Assembly (NCBI GenBank): GCA_030426945.1
Contig: JAUHXL010000017.1
Location: forward strand, 1 to 36,152
Reading direction: 5' to 3'
DNA from: a bacterium
GTDB taxonomy: Bacteria > Myxococcota_A > Bradymonadia > UBA7976 > UBA1532
DNA: 36,152 bases
In this document: piece after piece, positions 8,074 to 20,367 of the stretch
Position numbering within the stretch: position 1 is the first letter of the stretch
Layout: each line of letters opens with the position of its first letter
Program-made: the position numbers and the translations under genes
The notes under the pieces: generated by a model
Databases searched by the model: none
What the model was told of the DNA's origin: nothing
Seen by the model: only the letters and a program-made list of their open reading frames with translations

Positions 8074-8838
8074 CTACTCCACGCGGGGCACCAGGCTCCC
8101 GTCGGTGGGGCGGCGGACCGTGAAGGTCACCGCCTCGTTGCTGTCGCGGACGCGGTCGAACAGGTCACCCATGCCCTCGGTGCGGGCGGTGCAGACGTGC
8201 AGGCCGGCGAGGTCGGGGTGGTCGCGCAGGGCCTCGTCGGTGGGCAGGACGGGGAGCGTGCGCTCCTTGGGGTCCCGCTTGTTCTTCTTCCACTTCGCCC
8301 ACAGCTTGCGCGCCTCGCGGGCGTCGGCGTAGTTGAGGAACATGGCCTCGAAGGTGGCCGGCAGCTCGAGGGCGGCGGGCGCGGCGGCGACCTCGGCGGC
8401 CGGCGTCGGGGTGCTCCGCACGGGGGCCTCGGTCGGCTCGGCCAGCATGCGGGCGCGCTGGTTGCGCAGGGCGGCGACGGTCGAGCCGAAGCGAGGCGCC
8501 TGCCCCGCAGCGTCCTTGTTCGGCTTCCCCTTGGCCAAGCGCTTCAGCCACCCGAGCTCGGTCGCGAACTGTCGGGCAGACACGTCGGGCTCACGACGCA
8601 GGCGACCCTCCACCCACTGCCCGACATCGGCCAGCGCGGACTTCTCGTTGTCGCCACCGGCATAACTACTTCTTTGCAGCGCCTCCAAAAGCGCCAGGGC
8701 CTCGACCGGGGCCAAGGCCTCGTCGTGCAGGTGGCGCTTGGTCGCCTCGAGTGCCTCGGACAGGAAGGTGGTATGCCTATCCGTGAACCGTCCCGCGGCC
8801 TCCTCGACGGCGCGCATCGTGGTGGCGTCCAGGCTCAT
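8074..8838 (-). CDS. Unknown CRISPR-locus protein, 254 aa
   Basis: I do not recognise this protein. The N-terminal half (about 1-150) looks helical. A Pro/Ala-rich stretch (about 135-165) links it to a C-terminal part with a basic patch (WAKWKKNKRDPKERT) and a mixed alpha/beta end. There is no signal peptide or membrane segment. The ATG at 8838 overlaps the TGA of the upstream RAMP gene (TGATG), so it is made together with the interference subunits. Its position between the RAMP genes and the CARF-HEPN gene fits an accessory subunit of the effector complex (Csx19-like proteins occupy similar places in III-D loci) or a regulator. Sequence alone does not decide. Confidence 0.85.
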   Translation of the reverse strand: MSLDATTMRAVEEAAGRFTDRHTTFLSEALEATKRHLHDEALAPVEALALLEALQRSSYAGGDNEKSALADVGQWVEGRLRREPDVSARQFATELGWLKRLAKGKPNKDAAGQAPRFGSTVAALRNQRARMLAEPTEAPVRSTPTPAAEVAAAPAALELPATFEAMFLNYADAREARKLWAKWKKNKRDPKERTLPVLPTDEALRDHPDLAGLHVCTARTEGMGDLFDRVRDSNEAVTFTVRRPTDGSLVPRVE

Positions 8839-9818
8839 CAGCAGTCCCCTCGGCTGTGCATCTCCACCAGCTTCTGCTCGCCGGCGGCGTGGTAGTCGGC
8901 GCTCGCTACGAAGGCTTCGCGCCACGCGGGCGGGTTGTGCGGGATCCTCGCTCGTCGGTGGTCGCGCAAGTCCCACGACACCTCCTTGGGGCGAAGACGA
9001 CCAAACCCGAGTCCCTTCCCAGCCCCCACCTTGAACGCCGTGTTGTGCACGAACCCGGCTGCCGAGAGGATCGCGGCCAGCTCCGCGGGCTGCACGTTGA
9101 ACAGCGTCAGGCGACCGGTGAGCGTGGCCCCCGCGGGGATCACCTCGACGAGCAGCTTGGCTTTCGGTGCCTCGGGGCCGCGGCCGATGTAGAACTTGCG
9201 CCCGTTCACCGACCCGACGTGGAAGCGACCCCCGCTGACCGAGAACTGTCCCAGGTGGTGAAGCCGGGGGCTGTACTGGCGGGACATGCGCTCGATCTCA
9301 GGACCGCGGTCGCTCAGGAAGTCGCCAACGCTCAGGCGGCCGCGCGCAGACTGCTGGCCGCTCTGATAGCCAAACAGGGCGCAAGCGGGACAGAGGCCCC
9401 TGGCGGTGCACTGCCGAAACACATCGAGCCGTTTGGGCCCATCGGTGAGTTCGGCCTCGCTGACGTGGGGATAGCTCCTGGAGCGGACCTTGCGCTGCTT
9501 GCCGCCCAGCGGCGGACCGAAGAGCGTGCAGCTGCAGGTCAGCGCTTCGAAGCGACCGCGCAACGCGCCCTTCATCGACGAGCCGGGCACCACCAGCGTC
9601 TCGCCGCTGCGCGCGGCGGTGCGCACGACGTCCCGGCCGTGGACAGCCTTGTAGCCGCTGCCCACGTGCACCGGCCGGTCGGCCGTGTAGCTCAACGTCA
9701 CCGCGCCGAACAGCAGCCCCTCGAGGCGCCGGTCGAAGCGGTTGTGGTCGCCGCGATCGACGCGGTTCACCCGATCGGGCAGCGGGACGAAGTCGTACCC
9801 GGACGCCGCGCCGCTCAT
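8838..9818 (-). CDS. Type III RAMP protein, Cas7-like (third copy)
   Basis: This 326-aa RAMP protein has the Cas7 signature VPGSSMKGALRGRFEAL (about 77-93), a zinc-type CPACALFG motif and the glycine-rich loop VGAGKGLGFGRL near the end. D63 (GRDVVRT) sits where Csm3 has its target-RNA-cleaving Asp. It is probably a backbone subunit of the Cas10 effector complex that holds crRNA and cuts target RNA at 6-nt steps. It overlaps the upstream csx7-like gene by 4 bp (ATGA). Compared with the next two RAMP genes it has an extra N-terminal segment of about 35 residues and a distinct insert (about 175-215), so it may cap one end of the filament, like Csm5. Subtype naming is uncertain. Confidence 0.85.
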   Translation of the reverse strand: MSGAASGYDFVPLPDRVNRVDRGDHNRFDRRLEGLLFGAVTLSYTADRPVHVGSGYKAVHGRDVVRTAARSGETLVVPGSSMKGALRGRFEALTCSCTLFGPPLGGKQRKVRSRSYPHVSEAELTDGPKRLDVFRQCTARGLCPACALFGYQSGQQSARGRLSVGDFLSDRGPEIERMSRQYSPRLHHLGQFSVSGGRFHVGSVNGRKFYIGRGPEAPKAKLLVEVIPAGATLTGRLTLFNVQPAELAAILSAAGFVHNTAFKVGAGKGLGFGRLRPKEVSWDLRDHRRARIPHNPPAWREAFVASADYHAAGEQKLVEMHSRGDC

Positions 9819-10732
9819 GCCAGCGCCTCCAGCGCGCGCTGCGTCGACTTCAGCCACTCGTCGGCCGCGGCGTCGGCCATCGTGAAGCGGCGGCTGAGCC
9901 CGCGCACGTGATGGTCCGCCTTCGGCAGATCCGCTTCGTCCAGCAGGCCGTAGGCCTCGGCCTCGGCGGCGTCGACGAGGCGGCCGACGCCCTTGGGGCG
10001 GTCGCCGGCGCGCAGGGGCTGCTCGATGACCAGGTGATCGACGGCGACGTTCACGACGCCCAGGCCGCGGCTCTTGGTCGAGCCGAGCTGCGCGAAGCCC
10101 TCGTCGAGCTCGGCGATGCCCGACGCCAGCAGGCCCATCTGCCACGCCTGGAAGTTCTCGAGCGCGATGTCACCCCAGAAGCTGACGCCGGCGGGGACCA
10201 TTTCGAGGTCGAAGGGGCCGTGCTTGACGCTGCCCGCGACGCGGTCGATCGCGACGCCGTGGCGGGTCTCGGTCAGGTTCGCCTTGGCGTGCGCGCCGGC
10301 GGCGTCGGCGTCCTGCGGCGTCGCGTTGGCCGGGAACGGGAACAGGTCGCGCGGCGCGCAGCGGCCCTTCATCGCCGTGCTGCCGAACAATCGGCAGGCC
10401 AGGCAGTGCGCCTTGTGGACGTCGGTGGAGGGCGCCTTGCGGTTGTCGGTGCGGCCGCCGCAGCTGGTCTTGTGGTCGAGGGGATCGCAGGCGCCGTCGA
10501 CCTCGCCGAAGCGCCGCCCGCGCACCAGCGCCTCGATGCTGGACCGGAGGACGCCCTTGAAGCTGGAGCCGGGCACGTAGACCGTCTCGCCGAAGGCGCC
10601 GTGGCGCGTGCGCACGCAGCTCAGGTCGGCGCGCGCGGGGTCGAGGCCCGTGTCGCCCGCGCGGATGAGCAGCGGCGAGACCGTGGTGACCTTCAGGCGC
10701 AGGACCGCGCGGTTGAGACTCTTCTTGAACAT
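9815..10732 (-). CDS. Type III RAMP protein, Csx7/Cas7-like (second copy)
   Basis: This 305-aa protein resembles the Csx7 (SSO1426, TIGR02581) RAMP family: VYVPGSSFKGVLRSSIEALV, HCLACRLFGS, RHGVAIDRVAGSVKHGPFD and the Gly-rich GSTKSRGLGVV. D36 (ADLSCVR) aligns with the catalytic Asp of Csm3. It is an inferred Cas7 backbone subunit, contributing to crRNA binding and target-RNA cleavage. The ATG at 10732 overlaps the TGA of the upstream gene by 1 nt. It and the 10732-11535 gene are clearly paralogous (same CxxCRLFGS and RxGVxIDR blocks), as expected from duplication within the operon. Confidence 0.88.
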   Translation of the reverse strand: MFKKSLNRAVLRLKVTTVSPLLIRAGDTGLDPARADLSCVRTRHGAFGETVYVPGSSFKGVLRSSIEALVRGRRFGEVDGACDPLDHKTSCGGRTDNRKAPSTDVHKAHCLACRLFGSTAMKGRCAPRDLFPFPANATPQDADAAGAHAKANLTETRHGVAIDRVAGSVKHGPFDLEMVPAGVSFWGDIALENFQAWQMGLLASGIAELDEGFAQLGSTKSRGLGVVNVAVDHLVIEQPLRAGDRPKGVGRLVDAAEAEAYGLLDEADLPKADHHVRGLSRRFTMADAAADEWLKSTQRALEALA

Positions 10733-11535
10733 CAGACGTGCTCCTCGACGGCCTGGGTCAGGGCGCGGCGCCAGGTGGCGAAGCGCGACTCGACGTCGGC
10801 GCCGCGCACCGGCTCGAAGGACTTGCCGCCCAGCAGGCCCTTGGGCTCGACCTCGAGCAGCTCGGACCAGCCGAGGTTGACCCGACCCAGGCCGCGGCTG
10901 GTGAAGCCACCGAGGGCCGCGAAGCCGTGGTCGAGCTGGTCGAAGGCCACCGCCAGCAGGCCCAGCATCCAGTCCTCGCCGTTGTCGACGAACACCTCGA
11001 GGCCGAAGCGGGTGCCCGGGGCGACGACCTGGAAGTCGTATTTGAGCGCGCCGGACACCGTGCGCAGGTCGCGGTCGATGCCGACGCCGTCACGCAGCTC
11101 GATGGGCGGGGGGTCGTCGCGATCGAGGGCGAGGGCGTCGCTGAACCGCACGTGGCTGGACAGCAGGTGGCTGCCGAACAGGCGGCAGACGACGCAGTGC
11201 GCGTCGACGCTCATCGCCTCGCGGTCGCCGCGCCCCACGTCACCGCAGCCGCCCTTCTTCTCGGTGGGGTTGCAGGCCCACCAGGGGTGGACGGCGGCCT
11301 CGCGCTCCGGCTGGCCAAGGCCACGGACCAGTGACTCGACGGTCGAGCGGACCACGCCCTTGATCGAGGCGCCGGGGATGAACGGGTAGCCGTCGGCGTC
11401 GCGGAGCACCGGCAGATCGACGGCGTCGGCGTCGCCGTGCTGACCGGCGCCGATGCGCAGGCCCGTGCGGGTGACGAGCTGGCCGCTGAGCCGCACGCGG
11501 CGGCGCAGCGCGTGGAAGTCGTCGGGGGCGTTCAC
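10732..11535 (-). CDS. Type III RAMP protein, Csx7/Csm3-like (first copy)
   Basis: This 267-aa Cas7-type RAMP has AVDLPVLRDADGYPFIPG, which aligns with the Csm3 segment carrying the RNase Asp (here D40), then ASIKGVVRSTVESLV, HCVVCRLFGS, RDGVGIDRDLRTVSGALKYD and the glycine loop GGFTSRGLGRV. It probably forms the repeated backbone of the effector filament and cuts bound target RNA. It starts at GTG 11535, which overlaps the stop of the Csm2-like gene (GTGA). An extra Cys pair (WACN, GGCGD, about 85-97) suggests a zinc site in the thumb insert, like the Cys-rich insert of the neighbouring paralogue. Confidence 0.9.
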   Translation of the reverse strand: MNAPDDFHALRRRVRLSGQLVTRTGLRIGAGQHGDADAVDLPVLRDADGYPFIPGASIKGVVRSTVESLVRGLGQPEREAAVHPWWACNPTEKKGGCGDVGRGDREAMSVDAHCVVCRLFGSHLLSSHVRFSDALALDRDDPPPIELRDGVGIDRDLRTVSGALKYDFQVVAPGTRFGLEVFVDNGEDWMLGLLAVAFDQLDHGFAALGGFTSRGLGRVNLGWSELLEVEPKGLLGGKSFEPVRGADVESRFATWRRALTQAVEEHV

Positions 11536-16378: not shown

Positions 16379-18187
16379 TCAGTAGGGGTAGTAGCGGGCG
16401 ACGTAGGCGGCCCGGCCACCGCCATCGGCCAGGGGCGCAGCCATCAGGTGGGCGAGCGTCTGGGGTGCCGCCTGCTGCAGCGCAGCGAGGGCGACCTGCG
16501 CTGTTGGGGCACCGCACCGCCCGTGCGTCGCGGCGTCGAGATCGGCGAGCCACGCGCCAGTCAGGTCTTCGAGCGTGCCCAGCGTCTCGCGCCACCCGCC
16601 CGCAGCGGCGTCATCACGCTCCGACAGCGCGAGCAAGTGCAACGCCCGCAAGGCGGGGGCCCCCCGCACTTCGAGTCGGCCTCCGCGAAAGGCCTCGACG
16701 ATGGCCTGGAGTGCGCCGGCCGTCTGTGCGTGTCCGGGCGCGTTCGGCACTCGATCGGCTCGCAGCCGGGCAGATCCGCAGGCATGCGCCGTTCGCACGA
16801 ACCACTCTCCGACGTCGCGACCACCCGCCAGGGCGCGGACCCGGTCGGCCAGCTCGCTCGCTTCGCCGAACGAAGCGAGATCCCCCGCCGCCGCGGCCAG
16901 CCGCAGCCACTCACAGAGCGGATAGCTGACCTGCTCGTAGGCGCAGCGTTCGAAGTGCCCACGCGCCGCCCGCCGCGCGCTGTCGAGCGCCTCGGCGGTT
17001 CGGCCGGTGACGCTCTGCAGGCGCCCGAGGGCGCCCAGCAGCTTCAGGTGACCGACGGTGGCCTCCGTGCCCACCCGCAAGTGTCGCTCGACCAGTCGCA
17101 TCGCCTCGTCGGTCGAAGGTGTGCCCGTGTCCGTGCACGCTTGCACCGCGTGCGCCACCAGCTCGAGGCGCAGCGGCAGCGGCAGCCGCAGGAGCACCGC
17201 GTCCGGGAGCGTCGGGAACGGCTGCCCCGGCAGGTGCGCGTGCCGCGCCGCGATGGCGGTCGCGACGCGCAAGCGTAGCAGCTCGTCCGCAGGCAGCGCC
17301 GCGCCCCAGCCCTCGAGCGCGCGGGCCCCAGCCAGGGCCACCGGGCGCCACGCGGGGACGGCGGCGTGGGGCATCAGCGCCAGCCGGAAGACCGCATCGA
17401 CCAGATCGGCGCGGGTCTCGGGCGCCCTCCCCTGCGCTTCGACCTCGGCCGCGATGGCGTCGCCCCACACGGCGTCGATCGCGCCGGCGACGGTCTCGAC
17501 CGGCACGACCGAGACGTCGGCGCCCGCCGCACGGACCGCAGCCTCGGCCGAAGGGGCGTTCTTCGGATGCACCAACAACGTGTCCACCGCAGGGGCCCAC
17601 GCGCGCAGGGCTGCGAGCTTGCCGACGAAGCCCGCATCGGACACCGGCGCGGTGCATCCGCGCGCGTCGACCTCGGCGACGGCGGCGAACCTCGCCGGCA
17701 GGGGGTGGTTCAGCGCGCGGCTGCTGACGCTCAGCGCGAAGGCCAGGCCGGCCGACGTGCCGTCGAGGGCGGCGTGAGGCCGATCACGAGATCCCACCTG
17801 CACCGCGCCGATCAGGAACGCAGTGGGGGGCAGCGGCTCGAGACGGTCCAGCGGCCGCCAGAGAAGCGGCAGCGAGGCCGCGGCGGCACCGATCGCCCGC
17901 TGCCAGGTGTCGCGGACGCCGGGCGCCCAGGCCACCGACCGCCCCTCGTAGGCGGCCCCCACGGCGTAGGCCCCGCCCCGCAGACCGTCCACCGCGAGGA
18001 CGAGCACGGCGCCGACGACCGGCGCCGGCGCGGGCCGCCAGGATCGCGCGCGGCGACCGGCCTCCGTGTGGGCGGGCGGCCACGCCCAGGCCCCGGCGTT
18101 CAGCGCGGCGCGCACCTGACCCGCGCGGATGTCGTTCTCGTCCTCGAGGCGGCACCCCGAGACCAGGCGGTGAACCAACTCGCTCAA
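16379..18187 (-). CDS. Lon-type serine-lysine protease with C-terminal helical (TPR-like) region
   Basis: The protein is 602 aa. Residues about 55-235 match the proteolytic domain of Lon (S16): GAVLVLAVDG, LDGTSAGLAFALSV with S145 as the nucleophile, and SDAGFVGKLAALRAWAPAVDTLLVHPKN with K190 as the general base. The 45-residue Ser-Lys spacing is close to that of Lon. There is no AAA+ ATPase and no CARF or SAVED domain that I can see. Residues about 240-602 are continuous helices with TPR-like character. It starts at TTG 18187, overlapping the upstream TGA (TTGA). Position upstream of cas6, and beside a sigma-like gene, points to a CRISPR-activated protease like CalpL or, by architecture, TPR-CHAT. 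The activation signal is unknown. Confidence 0.85.
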   Translation of the reverse strand: MSELVHRLVSGCRLEDENDIRAGQVRAALNAGAWAWPPAHTEAGRRARSWRPAPAPVVGAVLVLAVDGLRGGAYAVGAAYEGRSVAWAPGVRDTWQRAIGAAAASLPLLWRPLDRLEPLPPTAFLIGAVQVGSRDRPHAALDGTSAGLAFALSVSSRALNHPLPARFAAVAEVDARGCTAPVSDAGFVGKLAALRAWAPAVDTLLVHPKNAPSAEAAVRAAGADVSVVPVETVAGAIDAVWGDAIAAEVEAQGRAPETRADLVDAVFRLALMPHAAVPAWRPVALAGARALEGWGAALPADELLRLRVATAIAARHAHLPGQPFPTLPDAVLLRLPLPLRLELVAHAVQACTDTGTPSTDEAMRLVERHLRVGTEATVGHLKLLGALGRLQSVTGRTAEALDSARRAARGHFERCAYEQVSYPLCEWLRLAAAAGDLASFGEASELADRVRALAGGRDVGEWFVRTAHACGSARLRADRVPNAPGHAQTAGALQAIVEAFRGGRLEVRGAPALRALHLLALSERDDAAAGGWRETLGTLEDLTGAWLADLDAATHGRCGAPTAQVALAALQQAAPQTLAHLMAAPLADGGGRAAYVARYYPY

Positions 18188-19218
18188 GCGCGCACCTCGT
18201 CGCCACCGAAGCAGGCCGGCGCGGCCCAGTACGCCATGTCGTCCTCGTCGGCCGCTCGCGCCAGCAGCGCGTCCGGCGCGAACCGCCGCACGGGCAGGGC
18301 CGCGACGAATGGCTCCAGCCGCTCGTCGACCAAGGCTACCTCGCGCTCGAACGCTGCCGAGCGGCCGCTCGCCGCGCGCACCTGCCACGCCGACTCGAGA
18401 TCGTCCCGATCACGCAGCAGCCCGACGACCAGCGCCCGCCAAGCGTCGTCGTCCGGTGCCCACTCGGTCGCGAGCGCGTCCAGCTCGTCCAGCAATAGAC
18501 TCGCTCGCGTCGCGACGCGATCATCGAGGGCGCGCAGCTGAGCGGGCGCATGGCAGCACGACCAGAGGTCCACCGCGTGCGTCAGCGCGAACGGCGCGTC
18601 TTCGGCGACCGCGCGGACGATGTCGGCCGGCCGCGCGGACGAGGCTCGCGCAAGGCGAAGCACCCGCCCCGCGCCCACCGCTCGGCCCCACTCCGATCCC
18701 ACGTCGATCGCCTCGCGAGCCCACTCGTACAGCGCCGCGTCGACCCCGAGCGCACGCCAGGCCTCGAGGGGTGGCGGCGGGGCGCCTCGCCCACCGGCCA
18801 ACCACCCGACAGTGTCGCCCTCGGCGTCGACCAGCACGCCCGCGCCGTCCGGCGCCATCACCGCCGCGGCCCCGACACCCGCCGGTGCGAGCAGCACCAG
18901 GCCCTCGCTGCGCTGGTGAGTCCGCAAGCCGCCACTGGTCCTGACGCTCAGCGCCGCGTCGCCGAGCGAGGTGACCGCCACGACCCCTTCGCCGAAGTGC
19001 ACCCGAAGCCCGACCGCGGCGGCCGCCGCACCGGCGTCGACCCAATCGACCGCGTCCAGCTTCAGACCCTCGAGTGACACCGGCGCGCCGCCGCCGCGCA
19101 GCTTCCCGACGCCGGCCCCGAAGGTCGACATCCGCTCGCGACCCACCTCGCGACCACCCGCCGCGTGAGCGGCCTCGCGCACGTCTTCCGCGGCGGTTCG
19201 CTGTCCATCGTCCGTCAT
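18184..19218 (-). CDS. Unknown protein between protease and sigma factor; candidate protease substrate/anti-sigma
   Basis: I do not recognise this 344-aa protein. After a charged N-terminus, residues about 30-140 look beta-rich (VGLRVHFGEGVVAVTSLGDAA and similar). A Gly/Pro linker (GGRGAPPPP, about 142-150) follows, then helices to the end. There are no membrane or signal segments. It lies between the sigma-like gene (66-69 bp upstream) and the Lon-type protease (4-bp overlap), the position CalpT has in CalpL-CalpT-CalpS loci. A role as a cleavable inhibitor of the sigma factor is inferred from position only. The start could also be GTG 19221; ATG 19218 has GAGG 6 nt upstream. Confidence 0.8.
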   Translation of the reverse strand: MTDDGQRTAAEDVREAAHAAGGREVGRERMSTFGAGVGKLRGGGAPVSLEGLKLDAVDWVDAGAAAAAVGLRVHFGEGVVAVTSLGDAALSVRTSGGLRTHQRSEGLVLLAPAGVGAAAVMAPDGAGVLVDAEGDTVGWLAGGRGAPPPPLEAWRALGVDAALYEWAREAIDVGSEWGRAVGAGRVLRLARASSARPADIVRAVAEDAPFALTHAVDLWSCCHAPAQLRALDDRVATRASLLLDELDALATEWAPDDDAWRALVVGLLRDRDDLESAWQVRAASGRSAAFEREVALVDERLEPFVAALPVRRFAPDALLARAADEDDMAYWAAPACFGGDEVRA

Positions 19219-19287
19219 CACGACCTCGAGCGGTTCGTCGCCGCTTCACCCCACCGACGCGGCCAACGAGCCGCACCGGACACCTGC

Positions 19288-20367
19288 CTAAGCATTGCCG
19301 CCTCCGCGCCTCTCGCGGGTGGCCGTGGGCGCCGATTGCTGCGTCCGAGCGTGACGCAGCAGACCGAGCCAGGCCAGCGCATCGACCTGTTCGGGGGCGT
19401 AGGGCTCCAAACCCGTCTGCCGGAGCCGTTCGGCGAGCGCCCCCAACAGCGTGTGTGCGAGCACCTCGAGGGCATGGAGCTGGTCCCGCCGTAATGTGCG
19501 CAGAGCCGCCTTCGGCTCCGCGGGCCCGCCCGTCCGCGCCGCCCACTCGGCCGCGAACCGCGCCTCGTCCGCGGGCCGCTGACGAGGCGCTGCGCCCGCG
19601 GCAGCCCGCCGAGCCTCGACGAGCCACCGCGCTTCCGGTGTCTGGGTCAGCCGGTCGGCGTGAAGCGCCAGCTCTCCCCGCAGGGCGTCCGCAGCGGCGT
19701 CCGCGGCGGCCTGCTGCAGCCGCCCCATGGCCCGCTGCTGCGCCTTGCCGAGCGCGGCAATGCGCTTCTTCAGGGCTGTGGCGTCGTCGCCGACGTCGTC
19801 GCGCGCCATCTCGGCCTGGGTCCGCTCCCGGAGCGCGATGGCCAGCTTGGCCTCGACGGCCTCCCGGAACGTCTCGGCCGCCGAGCTGGGCGTCATCTGT
19901 GCCGCCACCGACTCGACCAGCGACGCGCGCAGCGAGTCGCTGGCCCGCTCCATCCACCGTTCGATGCTCGCCGATCGCGCCTGGATCACGGCGGCCTCCG
20001 GCGTCGGATTCCGCCGATCGTGCATCGCGGCCAGGGGCGCGTCGTCCAAGGACGGCGCGCGGGCGTGCCTGCTCCGCCACGTGGACGCGAGCTGCCGCTG
20101 CACCGCGCTGCGCAGGTACGCGTGGGCCTGGGCCGATGTCGTCACGCGCACGGCGGCGGAGGCGCTGATGCCATGCCGGGCGAGACGCCAGAGCACCTCC
20201 TGGCGGGCGTCGTCGAGTTCGGCGCCCGCGTCCCGCGGGCCGATCTGCTCGATCGCCGCGCTCAGCGTCCGGAAGTGGCCCTCACGCTCGCGCTGACTCA
20301 ACCCGCGGCGCGTCTCGGGCCCCAGCGCCGTCAGCGCCGCGAGCAGGTCCGGATCCCCGGCGTTCAT
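19288..20367 (-). CDS. CRISPR-locus sigma-70-like factor
   Basis: This 359-aa protein has a region 2-like block at about 50-108 (ELDDARQEVLWRLAR, AYLRSAVQRQLASTWRSR, SLDD), following the ECF pattern of an acidic Q-E-V helix, then a helix ending in an Arg-rich stretch. A region 4-like HTH lies at about 178-220 (ERTQAEMARDDVGDDATALKKRI). A further helical domain of about 120 residues follows, longer than in ordinary ECF factors. It overlaps the DUF3800-like gene by 4 bp (ATGA). By comparison with CalpS and the RpoE of type III-E loci, it is an inferred transcription switch released when its inhibitor is cut by the protease. The target promoters are unknown. The sigma call rests on motif pattern, not on strong identity. 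Confidence 0.72.
   Translation of the reverse strand: MNAGDPDLLAALTALGPETRRGLSQREREGHFRTLSAAIEQIGPRDAGAELDDARQEVLWRLARHGISASAAVRVTTSAQAHAYLRSAVQRQLASTWRSRHARAPSLDDAPLAAMHDRRNPTPEAAVIQARSASIERWMERASDSLRASLVESVAAQMTPSSAAETFREAVEAKLAIALRERTQAEMARDDVGDDATALKKRIAALGKAQQRAMGRLQQAAADAAADALRGELALHADRLTQTPEARWLVEARRAAAGAAPRQRPADEARFAAEWAARTGGPAEPKAALRTLRRDQLHALEVLAHTLLGALAERLRQTGLEPYAPEQVDALAWLGLLRHARTQQSAPTATRERRGGGNA

Follow-up and report, generated by a model that had tools for sequence, protein, structure and literature searches.

A conserved protease-sigma gene cassette that recurs beside type III CRISPR loci and may couple proteolysis to transcription

Do the genes that precede cas6 in a type III-D-like CRISPR (clustered regularly interspaced short palindromic repeats) locus of a bradymonadial bacterium encode a relay in which a protease controls transcription? 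Two such relays are known, both from type III loci: CalpL-CalpT-CalpS, in which a cA4 (cyclic tetra-adenylate)-activated SAVED-Lon protease is combined with an anti-sigma and a sigma factor (PMC12751052, PMC11229360), and the type III-E system Csx29-Csx30-CASP-sigma, in which a TPR-bearing CHAT protease is combined with the Cas7-11 effector (PMC10028731). The window analyzed here, the whole of a 36,152-nucleotide stretch (contig JAUHXL010000017.1, positions 1-36,152; GCA_030426945.1; Myxococcota_A; Bradymonadia; UBA7976; UBA1532), contains three minus-strand open reading frames in a row, followed by cas6: a sigma-like gene, Sig (20367-19288; 359 aa, ATG start), an unrecognized gene, U344 (19218-18184; 344 aa, ATG start), and a protease gene (18187-16379; 602 aa, TTG start), with cas6 at 16357-15446. 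Sig and U344 are 69 bp apart, U344 and the protease gene overlap by 4 bp, and 21 bp separate the latter from cas6, exactly as in the original prediction, which proposed that these three genes form a CRISPR relay. That prediction was right about the three genes and overlooked a fourth: D38 (21437-20364; 357 aa), a DUF3800-like gene with an IDESGDF motif, leads the cassette and overlaps Sig by 4 bp.

We found the cassette to be real, conserved and more general than first claimed. Gene order, an S16 domain with its active-site residues, sigma region 2 and recurrence beside type III genes appear from the sequences themselves, and we propose that D38-Sig-U344-Lon is a portable protease-to-transcription cassette in which the Lon-type protease would cut U344 and so free Sig, the whole being wired to CRISPR in type III loci. 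We give this proposal about an even chance of being correct.

The protease carries the features first ascribed to it, i.e., a DGTSAG motif and an aligned Lys 45 residues past its Ser (Ser145/Lys190), in an N-terminal S16 domain. By itself, the window protease matched the LonB model TIGR02902 at E = 0.0015, far below that model's cut-off. The profile of its 26-member family matched Lon in PDB at 3e-15 across the S16 domain (profile positions 6-190), and Lon_C matched 14 of the 26 members (E ≤ 0.1), the best at 9.6e-14. Both catalytic residues are kept in 40/42 homologues. At the C-terminus, 41 of the 42 rows end in Tyr, 23 of them in YPY. TPR models matched some relatives (TPR_12, 6/26 at E ≤ 0.1; MalT-like TPR, best 4.8e-8) and did not match the window protease itself; going by these relatives, the C-terminal half is TPR-like. 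No AAA+, CARF, SAVED or CHAT match was obtained for the window protein (Pfam, PADLOC) or for the family of 26 (Pfam), and the AAA+ module of classical Lon was absent among the 15 Pfam families that match the 26 members. Judged by these profiles, the protein is an AAA+-free S16 (Lon) peptidase with a Ser-Lys dyad, and its architecture differs from that of CalpL, as had been suggested. Searches of plasmid and phage collections gave no homologue of the protease at E ≤ 0.01. Two proteases, at loci L038 and L056 (loci and genomes are given below by our L and G numbers), have lost both the catalytic Ser and Lys, and these are the only mapped protease loci without U344 (2/2 vs. 0/40, P = 0.001; the group consists of just these two loci, and L038 lies on a short contig). 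They lack Sig as well. Since the dyad-less copies are the only ones without U344, proteolysis appears to go with the partner genes.

The assignment of Sig to the sigma-70-like factors held for region 2 at the family level. In hhalign comparisons, the Sig family aligned over residues ~32-103 with 11 ECF (extracytoplasmic function) sigma factors from the same genome at a probability of 94.5 (P = 7.9e-8), the ECF set comprising 12 candidates retrieved with a motif filter on 30 loci, minus one misaligned row. Controls with U344, the protease family and 20 column shuffles gave probabilities of at most 0.5 (at most 0.1 for the 20 shuffles). The Sig family profile also found ECF sigma structures in PDB (best, 6.3e-5), and the AlphaFold model of Sig is all-helical (pLDDT [predicted local distance difference test] 77.6). 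These comparisons support an ECF-type sigma region 2 in the family; region 4, which had also been predicted, is only suggestive. At two loci, L043 (2750-3742) and L060 (7752-8729), a single gene contains two separate Sig profile matches. Some members seem to carry the C-terminal part of Sig twice, L031 and the window included when inspected by eye.

U344, rightly described as unrecognized, represents a new family that was found at 39 of the 41 mapped loci. In an alignment of 26 sequences, its invariant residues lie chiefly in the helical half of the protein. The AlphaFold model (pLDDT 77.2) comprises a beta domain (residues 71-142) and a confident helical domain (151-336), with a low-confidence N-terminus in which residues 27-59 score below 50. 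A stretch predicted to be disordered (27-59) would thus precede the folded domains, which we count in favor of the proposed relay. From gene order and the precedent of the known relays, U344 is a putative anti-sigma factor and protease substrate.

D38 belongs to the same unit as Sig, U344 and the protease, and the junction between D38 and Sig, as called, measures -4 bp at 20 of 24 loci, a tight coupling which hints that D38 acts with Sig. Its assignment to DUF3800 (PF12686) is weak: the window D38 matched at E = 0.097 with 13.8 bits, under the cut-off of 21, and 4/22 family members matched at E ≤ 0.1 (best E, 0.029). The DESG motif is conserved, as is an Asp late in the sequence. DUF3800 is described as a family with an RNase H fold that occurs in loci of Cas12a2/type V and of type VI (PMC10910872, PMC12669027).

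To follow the cassette across genomes, we searched 282 Myxococcota genomes, GTDB contigs, 297 Acidobacteriota genomes and 294 Planctomycetota genomes. Protease matches at E ≤ 0.001 were present in 39 Myxococcota genomes, in 30 of them below 1e-5; the other nine, which had only matches of E ≥ 7e-5 (Lon-like or other frames), were set aside, G048 (8.5e-7) was left out, and G069, a contig-edge fragment, enters only the genome tally of 29. The GTDB contigs yielded 10 loci, and a full-length protease was found in three Acidobacteriota genomes and in four Planctomycetota genomes. Up to four candidates per genome were scored at first look, and these totals are lower bounds. In all, 45 loci from the three phyla were compared, i.e., 41 mapped loci and L145-L148. 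Each locus was counted once (L065, L066, L072 and L074 repeat others); the near-identical L070 and L071 are both included, as are L063, without a protease, and L062, with a contig-edge piece of one. Among the 41 mapped loci, the protease is present at 40, U344 at 39, Sig at 36, and D38, like the complete set, at 25. L146-L148 have all four genes and L145 lacks D38, so that the complete cassette occurs at 28/45 loci, with several of the rest cut by contig ends. The gene order is D38-Sig-U344-Lon, the protease being divergent at L048. U344 and the protease gene overlap at 23 of 34 loci (starts as called by script), and Sig is always adjoined by U344 (36/36 mapped Sig loci, including L063). Because these loci also served to iterate the profiles, the E-values for the cassette are not independent; synteny is.

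Some neighborhoods have features of their own. At L063 (7396-9643), Sig and U344 lie adjacent with no protease found in the 18 kb examined, and may be a Sig-U344 pair without Lon. The Sandaracinus-related loci L054/L074, L055 and L073 share a three-gene group downstream of the protease (~330-380, 470 and 460 aa), the last gene of which (460 aa) gave AAA/helicase-like matches. G239 has two copies of the cassette, each followed after ~290 bp by a DEAD/DEAH helicase gene encoding 824 aa (L043, 6832-9306; L060, 11820-14294).

Type III cas or CARF genes adjoin the cassette at 10 of the 45 loci, in all three phyla. This is a minimum since CARF genes were sought at only some of the unlinked loci. In six cases the neighbor is a type III locus. 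The protease of the window ends 21 bp before cas6 of the III-D-like operon; in G159 (L051), cas10 of a III-D locus begins 36 bp after the protease; and in G480 (L146), cas10 of a III-D-like locus on the same strand lies at least 110 bp past the protease end. G620 (L147) has cas6, CARF-HEPN-CARF, Cmr1, Cas10 and Cmr3 on the same strand, G080 (L048) has Cas10, CARF-HEPN-CARF, RAMPs and an array, and G039 (L033/L072) has RAMPs, cas6, CARF-HEPN, a reverse transcriptase, cas1 and an array. At the other four, only CARF genes, cas6 or both were seen by the cassette: a convergent cas6 and CARF in G168 (L037), CARF-HEPN 486 bp after the protease together with CARF-RelE in G028 (L049), CARF-HEPN ~140 bp before D38 in G246 (L050), and CARF-HEPN and Cas6 just upstream in G664 (L148). 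The RAMP genes of G168, G028 and G246 sit on other contigs. The cassette of G010 reaches its contig end, and its congener G039 is linked. Unlinked status was based on a RAMP Pfam search of the genomes (all except G412), comparison with the window's Cas proteins, an array scan and clustering of neighbors. L056, scored as unlinked, has an array-like repeat (three copies, bases 1-224) at the contig end, 7.6 kb from the protease.

Association was also apparent at the level of genomes. Type III RAMP genes occur in 14 of the 29 Myxococcota cassette genomes vs. 34 of the 253 others (P = 3e-5, uncorrected for relatedness or completeness), and in 4 of these 14 they lie ≤10 kb from the cassette vs. ~0.2 expected if placed at random (a rough, post hoc estimate). 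Since type III cas or CARF genes adjoin the cassette in three phyla, a functional CRISPR link at the linked loci remains likely. On a tree of 42 protease rows (L071, L062 and L063 left out), the 10 linked loci are scattered, requiring eight changes of state, at least six of them forced by well-supported branches, and these changes may be gains or losses; an earlier tree (39 rows, seven linked loci; bootstrap not settled) required seven. Repeated capture could explain this pattern: a CRISPR-independent protease-sigma switch would be the old, portable module, taken up several times independently by type III loci in three phyla. We regard this history as plausible, with the balance tipped slightly against it.

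How might the proposed relay work? We infer inhibition, cleavage, trigger, target promoters and the role of D38 as follows. In the resting state, U344 would keep Sig inactive in a complex. The Lon protease, which lacks AAA+, would be switched on by a signal received through its TPR-like half, and once active it would cleave U344, perhaps in the disordered N-terminal tail of the latter. The released Sig would then take RNA polymerase to defense genes, with D38 as a possible partner that serves as a nuclease or as a sensor of nucleic acids. Where the cassette lies in a type III locus, the adjacent CRISPR-Cas system would serve as the signal or as the target operon, a role that something else must play at other loci. 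The effector complex might itself be the signal, as it is for Csx29 on Cas7-11; alternatively, the cassette may be the upstream element, so that Sig drives the neighboring cas operon. Pfam and PADLOC searches matched no known cyclic-nucleotide sensor domain in the cassette of the window.

Several results count against such a relay. No sigma model matched the window Sig alone, and only a minority of the family was recognized, Sigma70_r2 matching 6/23 members (E ≤ 0.5; best, 3.5e-5) and Sigma70_r4 a single one (1/23; E ≤ 0.5; 8.5e-5). The C-terminal half of Sig aligned with region 4 in hhalign at P = 0.005 with a probability of only 6.6-6.7, and Foldseek of the Sig model against PDB listed several sigma factors weakly, none at E ≤ 0.001. 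U344 has no related Pfam family and no PDB sequence relative, and in these searches it resembles no known anti-sigma factor; Foldseek of its model gave no PDB match at E ≤ 0.001. Upstream of 36 cassettes, no conserved word resembling a promoter emerged: the best gapped word occurred in six loci, whereas 30 shuffles gave maxima of 6-9. A plain relay does not account for the very tight coupling of D38 and Sig. On the protease tree, the linked loci cluster no more than under shuffled labels, ~105 of 500 shuffles being as low. No type III gene was found at 35/45 loci, many of them on short contigs; where ≥5 kb could be examined on both sides (22/45 loci), five were linked and 17 showed no type III gene. 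The original prediction assigned the triad to CRISPR and named its occurrence without cas genes as the refuting result, which is what these 35 loci provide. A CRISPR trigger therefore cannot be general, and we reject the CRISPR-dedicated relay as a general reading.

The same loci are what would be expected of an autonomous module that serves in stress or against phages and has a sensor of its own, and whose proximity to type III genes reflects the clustering of defense genes and not any wiring to CRISPR. The scatter of the linked label on the tree agrees with such a module, as do the presence of one linked (L051) and one unlinked copy (L061) in G159 and the lack of a CARF or SAVED match in the window protease (PADLOC) or its family (Pfam). 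However, an autonomous module would not be expected to turn up repeatedly, across three phyla, next to a single type of system, in many cases at a short distance and on the same strand, nor to have RAMP genes within 10 kb in 4 of 14 genomes. Moreover, no other partner system clearly stands out for the unlinked cassettes in a PADLOC survey of 90 of the 154 neighbors within 5 kb and among the 25 of 220 families listed. The leading PADLOC models among these neighbors are presumably kinases and helicases. We consider full autonomy rather unlikely.

The junction between D38 and Sig, the tightest in the cassette (-4 bp, 20/24), raises another alternative, in which Sig is an adaptor derived from sigma region 2 and not a working sigma factor. 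The output would then be the DUF3800-like nuclease, which Sig and U344 would keep silent until the protease releases it in a form of abortive infection. Region 4 is undetectable in nearly all Sig members, and DUF3800, an RNase H fold family, is described near other CRISPR systems (PMC10910872, PMC12669027). However, D38 is missing at 16 of the 41 mapped loci (some cut by contig ends), and six loci (L033, L052, L053, L059, L070 and L071) have Sig-U344-Lon without D38 within more than 5 kb of flank on both sides. Considering also that the DUF3800 membership of D38 is weak, we view the adaptor as improbable. Finally, that the genes are a divergent CalpL/CalpT/CalpS or III-E Csx29/Csx30/CASP-sigma system is very improbable, for although they share the logic of a protease, a third protein and a sigma-like factor in a type III locus, with an AAA+-free Lon as in CalpL and a TPR-like part as in Csx29, the protease has no SAVED, CARF or CHAT match, its profile finds no CalpL among 53 PDB matches, the PDB sequence matches of the U344 profile include neither CalpT nor Csx30, and the effector consists of several subunits, among them Cas10, in place of Cas7-11.

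The remaining genes of the window locus, all on the minus strand, bear out its description as III-D-like. The cas6 gene matched TIGR01877 at E = 0.0013, below cut-off, and resembles a gene at L147 (5670-6743; 4.5e-26) that PADLOC identifies as Cas6 (2.8e-65). It is followed by cas10 (15321-13762; PF22335, 7e-7; PADLOC Cas10, 2.4e-24), with GGDD in the palm as read from the translation, a Cas7-like/Csx10 fusion of uncertain start (13765-11906; PF03787, 1e-24; TIGR02674 Csx10, 5.8e-29, below cut-off), a probable small subunit, judged by position and length only (11909-11532), and three Csx7/Csm3-like RAMP genes (10732-11535, TIGR02581 at 5.7e-50; 9815-10732 and 8838-9818, both PADLOC Csm3). Next come a CARF-HEPN gene of the Csx1/Csm6-like type (8070-6787; TIGR02710, 1.2e-40; PADLOC CARF_HEPN, 4.8e-96), cas1 (5354-4311; PF01867, 5.1e-80), a single frame with reverse transcriptase and archaeo-eukaryotic primase domains (3816-688; RVT_1, 5e-25; AEP-TOTE, 4e-7), and the end of a CRISPR array (1-325; 37-bp repeat, spacing 69-73 bp), truncated by the contig start. 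The locus thus has the Cas10, Csx10 and Csm3/Csx7-type RAMPs by which type III-D is recognized, and the PADLOC models Cas5_IIId and Cas10 match; we use the term 'III-D-like' because the Csx10 and cas6 NCBIfam scores are under the curated cut-offs. A 254-aa gene lies between the last RAMP gene and CARF-HEPN (8074-8838), and in a slightly longer frame had no NCBIfam or PADLOC match. The reverse transcriptase-TOTE-type primase frame near cas1 has a parallel in G039 (L033), where reverse transcriptase and primase-like frames likewise surround cas1.

The known relays sit in type III loci, and the cassette adds to them another protease architecture, together with a new partner family. The protease is a new AAA+-free Lon, possibly with one regulated substrate. 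Since it is mostly found without CRISPR genes, the cassette can be examined first by itself and then where it is linked to CRISPR, which makes it testable whether CRISPR-controlled expression arises by the capture of existing sigma circuits. If repeated capture is true, the cassette would be a separate, further route from CRISPR detection to transcription, and such relays would evolve by recruiting ready-made stress circuits.

We found no description in the open-access literature of a Lon-TPR protease encoded together with genes for sigma and DUF3800 proteins, and the nearest counterparts of the cassette each share some of its features. Like the DUF3800 accessories of type V and type VI loci (PMC10910872, PMC12669027), some of which occur with TPR proteins, D38 is a DUF3800-like protein found near CRISPR effectors; unlike them, its gene is joined to those of a sigma-like protein and a Lon protease, and its Pfam support is weak. 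As in the RseA/RsiW-type ECF systems named in PMC10028731, the sigma gene is directly followed by a partner gene and a protease is the likely switch; here, however, the protease is in the same operon and region 4 is unproven. Csx29/Csx30/CASP-sigma and the cassette both combine a protease that bears TPRs with a large third protein and an ECF-like sigma, next to a type III effector. Membership in the III-E CASP systems was rejected, however, since the protease is a Ser-Lys S16 enzyme and not a CHAT cysteine protease, and the effector a multi-subunit III-D or III-B-like one with Cas10 and RAMP genes in place of Cas7-11; moreover, the cassette is mostly found without CRISPR genes. In CalpL/CalpT/CalpS, too, a Lon protease free of AAA+ is encoded within type III loci next to a third protein and a sigma factor. 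Membership in this system was rejected on protease architecture, as the cassette protease has a TPR-like C-terminal half where CalpL has SAVED and gives no SAVED or CARF match; in addition, U344 is without a named relative, the cassette includes D38 as a fourth, DUF3800-like gene, and most members were found without CRISPR genes. The analogy to both relays drawn in the original prediction is nonetheless supported, and the best reading is that the cassette would work like CalpL/CalpT/CalpS and Csx29/Csx30/CASP-sigma while belonging to neither.

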